Source: Arenicellaceae bacterium
Lineage (GTDB): Bacteria; Pseudomonadota; Gammaproteobacteria; Arenicellales; Arenicellaceae
Length of the DNA stretch: 64,000 nt
Assembly (NCBI GenBank): GCA_029246505.1
Contig: JAQWNC010000016.1
Location: 1-64,000 of the forward strand
Direction of reading: 5' to 3'
A model generated the notes under the pieces. The model was given only the letters and a program-made list of their open reading frames with translations, was not told where the DNA came from and ran no database searches. This document shows positions 39,607 to 41,748 of the stretch, piece by piece. A program made the position numbers and the translations under genes. Positions within the stretch are counted from its first letter, which is position 1. Every line of letters starts with the position of its first letter.

Positions 39607-40794
39607 ATGTCGGATGTAAATATGCGCCAGATGCTGGACGCAGGTGTGCACTTTGGCCACCAAACTCGTTACTGGTCACCCAAAATGGCTCCCTACATAT
39701 TTGGTGAGCGCAACAAAATCCACATAATAAACCTTGAAGATACAGTTCCGCTGTTTAAAGACGCGATGAACTATATCGGTCAATTAGTGGCTAATGGTGG
39801 TAGCATTTTATTAGTGGGCACTAAGCGTGCGGCTAGTAAACAGGTCAAGGAAATGGCTGAAGAAGTCGGCATTTCTTTCGTAAACCACCGTTGGTTGGGT
39901 GGCATGTTGACTAACTATAAAACGGTCAAGAATTCTATCCAGCGACTTAAAGATCTTGAGTCTAGCCAAGCAGATGGGTCTCATAGTCGGCTGAGTAAAA
40001 AAGAAGGGCTAACTCTGGACCGCGAACGCATTAAGCTTGAACGTAGTTTAGGCGGTATTAAAAATATGAATGGGCTACCGGATGCATTGTTTGTCATTGA
40101 TGTGAAGCAAGAATATATCGCTGTTTCCGAAGCTAATAAGCTGGGAATACCCGTGGTTGCTGTCGTTGACACCAACTGCGTGCCAGATGGTGTTGATTAT
40201 GTGATCCCTGGTAATGATGATGCGATTCGGGCGATTCATCTGTATCTAGATATTTTGAAGACGACTATTGAGGCAGCGCGCAAGAGCGTCCCCGTAAATG
40301 TAGTGGCTACCGATGACGCTTACGTTGAGATTGATGACGAAGGTAATGCTGTCGCTCTTGAGCAGCCAAAGAAAGCGATTGAAAAGCCAGTAGCTAGGGT
40401 CAAAGCTGATGCCCCGGTAGTAGACAAGCCGGAAGTCTCTGCAGAACCTAAAGCTGAAGAGGTTGAGAATCTAGCTGTAGAGAAGCCGCAAACAATGGTT
40501 AAGGTGAAGTCGGACGATAAGGTTGAGGTTGAAGCCAAGCTGGTGGCTAAAAAATCTGCAGTAAAAAAAGCTGCTCCTAAAAAAGCCGTAGCTGAAGGTG
40601 ATGATTTAACCGAGTTAGATGGTATCGGGCCGGTTATAAAAGGTAAGCTGTACGCTGAAGGTGTAACTACCTTTGCTCAAATTGCTGAGTGGACTGCTGA
40701 GGAAAAGGCTCGAATTGATGAGCTGTTGAGCTTTAAAGGCCGCATCGATCGAGAAAAATGGATCGAGCAGGCAAAAGCCAAAGTTGCTGGCTAG
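39607..40794 (+). CDS. rpsB: 30S ribosomal protein S2 with C-terminal helix-hairpin-helix extension
   Basis: The ATG at 39607 (not the adjoining TTG) follows ACAGGAGA and gives 395 residues against about 240 in E. coli. Residues 1-225 are a normal S2: [65 protein letters not shown] and [16 protein letters not shown]. Then comes a linker of about 105 residues rich in Lys, Ala, Glu and Val. From 332 to 395 there is a compact domain, [20 protein letters not shown] then TTFAQIAEW and [15 protein letters not shown], with a helix-hairpin-helix [10 protein letters not shown] turn. A similar tail occurs on alphaproteobacterial L21, from memory. tsf follows. Confidence 0.97.
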
Positions 40795-40872: not shown

Positions 40873-41748
40873 ATGGCTATTACGGCCTCAATGGTAAAAG
40901 AACTTCGTGAGCGCACTGGCGCTGGCATGATGGAGTGTAAAAAAGCGCTCACAGAAGCAGATGGAAATATTGAGACCGCAATTGAAGAATTGCGTAAGCG
41001 TGGGGCTGCTCAGGCGGATAAGAAAGCTGGTCGGATAGCCGCTGAAGGCTTAATCGTGTCCGCTAGTCAAGATAGTGAATCAGTTTTATTGGAAGTAAAT
41101 TGCGAGACCGACTTTGTTGCAAAAGATGAAAATTTTATCGGGTTTGCACATTTATTAGGGCAAACCATCTTGTCACAGCGACCTAAAAATGTTGCTGCTC
41201 TTGCCTTGCTAGTATTGGATTCTGGGATTACTGTTGAAGAATCTCGACAAAATCTTATTGCTAAAATAGGCGAGAACATTAGTGTCCGACGGTTTGAACT
41301 CCTGAGTGCAGGTGACGGTAAGCTCAGTATTTATCAACATGGCGCTCGAATTGCGGTTGCAGTTTTATCGTCTGGTGGTGATGAAGGCCTTGGTCGCGAT
41401 ATTGCGATGCATATAGCGGCAAGCAGACCTCTATGTGTTAGTGCTGATCAAGTTGATCCAGGCACGGTCGAGAAAGAACGCGGTATTTATTTAGCTCAAG
41501 CCGAGGATAGTGGTAAGCCACCTGAAATAATGGAGAAAATGGTTGAGGGTAGGGTGCGTAAATTCCTCGGTGAAGTAACGCTTCTGGGGCAATCCTTTGT
41601 CAAAAATCCTGACCTAACTGTTAGTAAATTACTCACTTCACAACAAGCTACAGTTAGCGGTTTTGTTCGCTATGAAGTAGGTGAAGGTCTGGAGAAAAAA
41701 CAAGATGACTTTGTTGCAGAGGTGATGGCACAAGCCAAAGGCGATTAA
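40873..41748 (+). CDS. tsf: translation elongation factor Ts
   Basis: Nucleotide exchange factor for EF-Tu. 291 residues: N-terminal UBA-like domain (VKELRERTGAGMMECKKALT), the TDFVAKDENF motif that pushes into the EF-Tu nucleotide pocket, the central dimerisation core, and a C-terminal helix. Family length is 280-295. CGAGGACTGAAC precedes the ATG. It follows rpsB by 78 bases, the standard pair. Confidence 0.98.
   Translation: MAITASMVKELRERTGAGMMECKKALTEADGNIETAIEELRKRGAAQADKKAGRIAAEGLIVSASQDSESVLLEVNCETDFVAKDENFIGFAHLLGQTILSQRPKNVAALALLVLDSGITVEESRQNLIAKIGENISVRRFELLSAGDGKLSIYQHGARIAVAVLSSGGDEGLGRDIAMHIAASRPLCVSADQVDPGTVEKERGIYLAQAEDSGKPPEIMEKMVEGRVRKFLGEVTLLGQSFVKNPDLTVSKLLTSQQATVSGFVRYEVGEGLEKKQDDFVAEVMAQAKGD

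Follow-up and report, generated by a model that had tools for sequence, protein, structure and literature searches.

NCBI protein models already hold several proteins that end in one small helix-hairpin-helix (HhH) domain. The NCBIfam model PRK12311 (NF008966) holds a 30S ribosomal protein S2 with a C-terminal extension, and the PRK12278 models hold the same domain on a different ribosomal protein of the other subunit, 50S L21. Beyond the ribosome, the domain can be recognized by sequence in the NuoE of PRK12373, where the carrier is complex I, and in protein-O of the Dinoroseobacter shibae RC-LH1 (PDB 8yy9), where the carrier is a membrane component. In protein-O, the domain comes after a lengthy flexible loop and was untraceable in the map; the authors of the 2025 protein-O paper, who noted the domain on this photosynthetic protein, call the function of these domains obscure. 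A homologous C-terminal HhH domain is also found in the phasin PhaH (NCBIfam NF045508) of Caulobacter, a likeness drawn here via the NCBIfam PhasinPhaH profile, which we take to represent the Caulobacter protein. According to section 6 of a review (PMC13052382), PhaH, PhaM, and PhaF bind granules (PHB granules in the case of PhaH) by their N-terminal ends and DNA nonspecifically by their C-terminal ends, PhaH through a helix-hairpin-helix domain and PhaF and PhaM through histone-like domains. PhaH fixes storage granules to the nucleoid, and the proposal that it binds DNA is repeated in PMC12028471. Among the open-access papers whose titles and abstract openings were screened, none concerned this tail on ribosomal proteins, a coverage outside of which most subscription journals lie.

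The window analyzed here is a 64,000 bp stretch of contig JAQWNC010000016.1 from an Arenicellaceae bacterium (GCA_029246505.1). On its forward strand lies the rpsB gene (ribosomal protein uS2; nt. 39607–40794; 395 a.a plus stop), open throughout with zero internal stops. An AGGAG motif precedes the ATG at nt. 39607, while the mechanical list of open reading frames places the start one TTG codon earlier. The normal downstream neighbor, tsf (EF-Ts; nt. 40873–41748, forward strand), follows in the gene order expected of uS2, and is in turn followed by pyrH, frr, and uppS (all named by reading of the frames). The S2 core occupies residues 9–223 (nt. 39631–40275; Pfam PF00318 Ribosomal_S2, 307.3 bits against a cut-off of 26.1, E 5.8e-92) and is joined by a mostly disordered linker of about 107 residues (residues ~224–330, nt. 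40276–40596) to a C-terminal (HhH)2-like domain of 63 residues (residues 332–394, nt. 40600–40788), in good agreement with the initial annotation, which had ended the core near residue 225 and placed the tail at residues 332–395. The same annotation had argued from the unbroken frame and normal tsf that the tail was no misassembly, and the recurrence of this architecture in 18 of the 19 readable S2 genes of the family leads us to reject an assembly or frame artefact. An S2 with a normal core, a disordered linker, and a folded C-terminal domain is confirmed as real.

The tail alone (66 a.a) matches five NCBIfam models, namely two for L21 and one each for PhaH, NuoE, and S2, at E-values of 3.8e-21 to 1.8e-12, a likeness far beyond chance. 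The weakest of these is to the C-terminal domain of PRK12311 (E 1.8e-12, positions 268–330 of 334). The whole protein aligns with that model almost from end to end (residues 2–393 against positions 4–330 of 334) but scores 352.6 bits, under the curated cut-off of 526 bits, and the three distinct alphaproteobacterial S2 tails compared fall outside the gammaproteobacterial S2 tails. The match to the PhasinPhaH profile covers the domain (E 1.2e-20, positions 170–230 of 234), but at 75.9 bits against a cut-off of 250, and with S2 as its N-terminus, the protein is no PhaH phasin. The L21 of the same genome runs end to end with the two PRK12278 models, scoring 197.4 bits (cut-off 281) and 192.4 bits (cut-off 193). 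As NCBI models already hold tailed S2, L21, NuoE, and PhaH, the S2 form with a tail is not new as such. By the literature searched, what appears to be new is the pattern across machines, a separate gammaproteobacterial S2 form with both ribosomal subunits tagged, and the tandem arrays described below. A further NCBI model holds S2 with another C-terminal domain ('sunset').

Fold, selection, and charge of the S2 tail

The AlphaFold2 model of the tail, built from an alignment of 75 rows, comprises five helices at a mean pLDDT of 92.3. In the model of the whole S2 (13 rows), pLDDT falls under 50 at residues 230–243 and 248–329 and returns to 73–92 in blocks of the tail; low values also cover most of the first 40 residues, perhaps owing to too few rows. 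Structurally, the tail model is closest to RadA N-terminal domains (Z 8.3, rmsd 2.1, 61 aligned), followed by pol theta (Z 7.6), NusA AR2 (Z 7.6, rmsd 2.0, 60 aligned), and Hel308 (Z 7.2); RAD51 and Y-family polymerases are also among the matches, and SAM domains match at Z of about 5. Given the warning of the search tool that a Z under 8 may reflect just a common arrangement, the fold assignment leans also on the Pfam HHH_5 match at residues 332–370, itself weak (E 2.1e-4, 22.1 bits, under the gathering score of 27), and on the G-h-G sequence of the first hairpin; the second hairpin reads FKGRI. The predicted fold matches that of an (HhH)2-type domain, with two hairpins between helices in our reading, and bears out the original call of a helix-hairpin-helix domain. 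RadA and NusA share this fold; their sequence likeness to the tail is weak, the best profile E-values being 0.002 for RadA and 0.044 for NusA over about the first 40 positions. A large-subunit chain of kinetoplastid mitoribosomes shows a similar fold (Z 6.0–6.5; PDB 7aoi_BS, 6yxx_BS, 6hix_BS, 7aih_As).

The tail domain is under purifying selection and adjoins a fast-evolving linker. Among 22 gammaproteobacterial S2 proteins (231 pairs), retained from 25 distinct proteins fitting the start pattern after the alphaproteobacterial ones were dropped, median identity was 0.86 in the core, 0.36 in the linker, and 0.73 in the tail. We quote dN because dS was saturated or undefined for several pairs. 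For the 170 pairs with cores at least 75% identical, median dN was 0.083 (core), 0.523 (linker, from a gappy alignment), and 0.133 (tail), and for the 60 pairs with cores 60–75% identical it was 0.279, 0.908, and 0.264, respectively. The linker varies in both length and sequence. Across the 117 distinct domains from all carriers then collected, G8, G10, L17, G48, R52, W55, and Q58 were present in every one, with R49, G21, and L43 in 116 and K47 in 112. The glycine and polar positions of this set (G8, G10, K47, G48, R49, R52, W55, Q58) sit mostly at the two hairpins, while L17, G21, L43, and others lie outside them. With duplicates kept, the domain is net acidic on both ribosomal carriers (median −3 on S2 and −4 on L21); on most S2, acidity extends to the preceding 60 residues (median −10, range −18 to +7), and on most L21 the linker is basic (median +9).

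Carriers among relatives and other lineages

The domain occurs in three places in the source genome: S2, L21 (216 a.a; L001:1150-1800), and a 144 a.a protein whose N-terminus bears a hydrophobic segment. A frame read as NusA gave a fourth match, a weak one (E 0.24). The L21 copy answers the question of whether rplU in this genome carries or lacks the tail, and the similar tail that the initial annotation had placed on L21 is indeed the same domain. Within the family (21 genomes), the tail is present on 18 of 19 readable S2 and 20 of 20 readable L21. In 20 further genomes of the order, it is found on 3 of 17 readable S2 and 6 of 20 L21, where one non-tailed gene of each (S2 of G035, L21 of G028) runs off its contig and is counted as 'no'. 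Taken together, 19 of the 40 genomes with either gene have both tails, 11 neither, four the L21 tail only, two the S2 tail only, and four an unreadable S2, although most of these genomes are from one family and are not independent; a further genome (G002) is missing from the counts, as neither gene was found in it.

The third carrier, with its N-terminal hydrophobic segment (best 19-residue mean hydropathy of 1.75–2.84), was seen in 14 of the 21 family genomes (the source genome and 13 relatives). It was not found in six of the 21, three of them 96–99% complete, and G002 has two carriers, neither with a clear hydrophobic segment. In the two genomes scanned, the gene upstream of this carrier encodes BON plus OmpA domains (G004) or BON (source genome). 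The tail-less S2 of a genome from the same genus (G001, locus L087) is followed by a tsf-like frame and ends in Lys/Ala-rich repeats, an extension with a net charge of +13; no tail remnant was recognized after this S2, the only match having an E-value of 4.7. Its absence suggests that the S2 copy is dispensable in G001. The Lys/Ala/Pro repeats at this end may be likened to histone-like bacterial tails. Long S2 extensions lacking the domain are common in the order, and of the 11 tail-less ones with a computable charge, nine are acidic and two basic. In another member of the order (G037, L115), a different stretch of ~50 residues that looks foldable lies near the S2 C-terminus after a linker.

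Further afield, the domain is carried by uS2, bL21, uL22, bL19, uL4, NuoE, NuoJ, phasin, membrane anchors, and arrays of 22 copies; the ribosomal proteins found to bear it, a list that the initial annotation had proposed drawing up, are S2, L21, L22, L19, and L4. The best 80 of 145 loci, which are biased to query-like tails, gave 84 carrier frames sorted by similarity: 27 L21, 26 NuoE, 12 S2, three RND-type transporters and two Dpp-type ATPases (both named by reading, not Pfam), two L22, and 12 others. Further genomes added bL19, uL4 (a degenerate tail, L197, E 2.3e-10), NuoJ, and phasin-like proteins. Pfam searches of ten carriers confirmed S2, L22, L19, L4, NuoJ (Oxidored_q3), NuoE (2Fe-2S_thioredx), and one phasin; among these ten, HHH_5 passed its cut-off on one (34.6) and came close on another (26.2). 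NuoE is tagged in Alphaproteobacteria, while NuoJ has a C-terminal copy in a Rubritalea MAG (L182:1492-2688) that also bears the domain on L22. At E 1e-4 or better, the domain was present in 12 of 114 sampled gammaproteobacterial genomes, 9 of 96 alphaproteobacterial genomes, and 16 of 38 genomes from the order of the Rubritalea MAG, each count including the chosen center genome, a known positive. Two frames from the latter order contain 22 copies each (L243:726-9149, 2808 residues, with a hydrophobic-looking N-terminal segment; L244:1639-10350, 2904 residues) and look like multivalent scaffolds. Two DNA-binding Pfam families, BAF and IMS_HHH, also match the single array protein scanned when scores are summed over its copies. 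Many of the sources are MAGs, and single links between carrier and organism may be wrong.

Possible roles of the tail

Our preferred reading, to which we give a probability of roughly 0.4, is that the S2 tail is a promiscuous tether module that binds nucleic acid and holds ribosomes near the nucleoid or the nascent mRNA on it. The S2 tail would be one copy of this C-terminal module, a 63-residue (HhH)2-like domain that a long and flexible linker joins to its carrier, projecting from the 30S subunit via S2, with a second copy projecting from the 50S subunit via L21 in the same genome. It would most likely bind nucleic acid via its two hairpin loops, as PhaH's related domain is reported to do, nonspecifically, with DNA. 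The present analysis shows how the protein is built and predicted to fold, how the domain is selected and distributed, and that it was probably gained more than once; the DNA binding of PhaH is taken from the literature, and DNA or RNA binding by the S2 copy, with an effect on ribosome position, is what we infer.

The strongest lead for a nucleic-acid tether is the PhasinPhaH match together with the reported DNA binding of PhaH. It is further supported by structural matches led by RadA, with RAD51, Hel308, Y-family polymerases, and NusA AR2; by the placement of the near-invariant glycine and polar residues mostly at the two hairpins; by a folded domain kept under purifying selection on a disordered, fast-evolving linker; and by the basic linker on most L21. 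The recurrence of the domain on bulky assemblies (ribosome, complex I, phasin, and membrane anchors) also argues for a tether, as does the Lys/Ala-rich end (+13) found in place of the domain on the S2 of G001, which in our reading resembles the histone-like domains of PhaF and PhaM. Counting against simple DNA binding, however, the domain is acidic on S2 and L21, as is the linker on most S2. HhH-like folds bind proteins too: entry 6ib8 shows NusA AR2 in complex with SuhB, and SAM domains match at a Z of about 5. The apparent dispensability of the S2 copy in G001 also weighs against this reading. Setting the acidic domain and S2 linker against the PhaH lead, we keep nucleic-acid tethering at the above estimate and regard docking by protein contact as its foremost, though rather unlikely, rival. 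The tail may tether a factor, as the initial annotation suggested, a reading that lies close to both.

Under docking, the tails of S2 and L21 would bind each other, a membrane-anchored tail protein, or one shared partner, and ribosomes, complex I, and granules would be fastened either to the membrane or to each other. The third carrier, with its hydrophobic segment and its BON plus OmpA or BON neighbors, fits this, as do the tagging of complex I on both NuoE and NuoJ, the acidity of the domain on ribosomal carriers, and the presence of SAM and NusA AR2 among the structural matches. The two proteins with 22 tandem copies are as expected of a multivalent scaffold; however, they are equally expected of multivalent DNA binding, and one of them matches BAF and IMS_HHH. 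No direct sign of tail-tail pairing was seen, and the third carrier was missing, or lacked a clear hydrophobic segment, in the genomes noted above.

An improbable alternative is a role within the ribosome itself, with the tail bound, on the 30S subunit, to rRNA or to a translation factor and tuning initiation or assembly. S2 lies on the back of the 30S subunit near the mRNA exit, some ribosomal proteins bind RNA through HhH-like folds, and the kinetoplastid mitoribosomal chain matches at a Z of 6.5. The domain, however, also sits on L21, L22, L19, L4, and proteins outside the ribosome, linkers vary in length as well as in sequence, and the rpsA-like gene, a 559-codon frame in which five S1 repeats are found, appears normal. 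Given this frame, and with the same domain carried by the large subunit and by proteins outside the ribosome, replacement of S1 by the tail, and the S1-related idea prompted by the position of S2, find no support. That the domain is a near-neutral passenger, doing little by itself as it spreads to abundant proteins at their exposed C-termini, would suit its patchy spread (12 of 114 and 9 of 96 genomes, as above) and its traceless absence from the S2 of G001, but is improbable given a median dN of 0.13 in the tail against 0.52 in the linker over 170 pairs, the near-invariance of hairpin residues across carriers, and the retention of the L21 tail in 20 of 20 readable family genomes.

Where ribosomes lie with respect to nucleoid and membrane is generally explained by the exclusion of polysomes, by coupling to RNA polymerase, and by the signal recognition pathway. 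A broader view, offered tentatively, is that bacteria of at least two phyla may tag their machines for tethering, across the cell, with a single small HhH domain, where selection would act on the addressing of the machine and not on which subunit carries the tag, and where ribosomes would be held to the nucleoid or membrane by their own proteins. Lineages would have grafted the domain onto different subunits (five ribosomal proteins and two complex I subunits), granule proteins, and membrane anchors. If true, a built-in tether on both ribosomal subunits would be a further mechanism of ribosome placement. That lineages differ in which subunits of the ribosome and of complex I carry the domain amounts to a natural experiment on the features common to these machines. 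Names assigned automatically, 'L21' and 'NuoE' among them, hide the common domain, and the nearest Pfam model, HHH_5, stays under its cut-off on S2.

History of the S2 and L21 tails

The domain tree comprised 77 S2 and L21 tails over 62 columns, leaving out four divergent L21 tails (L192, L204, L213, and L215), and its bootstrap had not settled. A wider set, leaving out loci with four or more copies per frame, reduced 237 distinct domains to 186 rows. A single clade of all S2 tails, as expected of a single origin, was rejected (AU p 0.007), which makes two or more gains of the tail by S2 probable. One clade of gammaproteobacterial S2 and L21 tails was likewise rejected (p 0.015), while the gammaproteobacterial S2 tails alone as one clade were not (p 0.23). 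These S2 tails group with five gammaproteobacterial L21 tails (91/94), of which four come from the same order. One S2 tail from Alphaproteobacteria forms a pair with an L21 tail (97/90). Such groupings are most simply read as movement of the tail between the two proteins, although 62 columns cannot fix its direction. The initial annotation had envisaged a transfer to S2 as a domain moving between ribosomal proteins: the domain has probably moved in this way, but not in a single L21-to-S2 transfer, and there are many unrelated carriers. A transfer leaving L21 bare is ruled out by the tail on the L21 of the source genome, which groups with the L21 tail of an alphaproteobacterial MAG (100/89), apart from the L21 tails of its own family. 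A second, related HhH tail occurs on a frame read as bL19-like (L169 in G106); it has no FKGRI motif and ends in WPAQAELARDGKWDELKKWQ, and similar ends are seen on three other frames (L167, L156, and L238).
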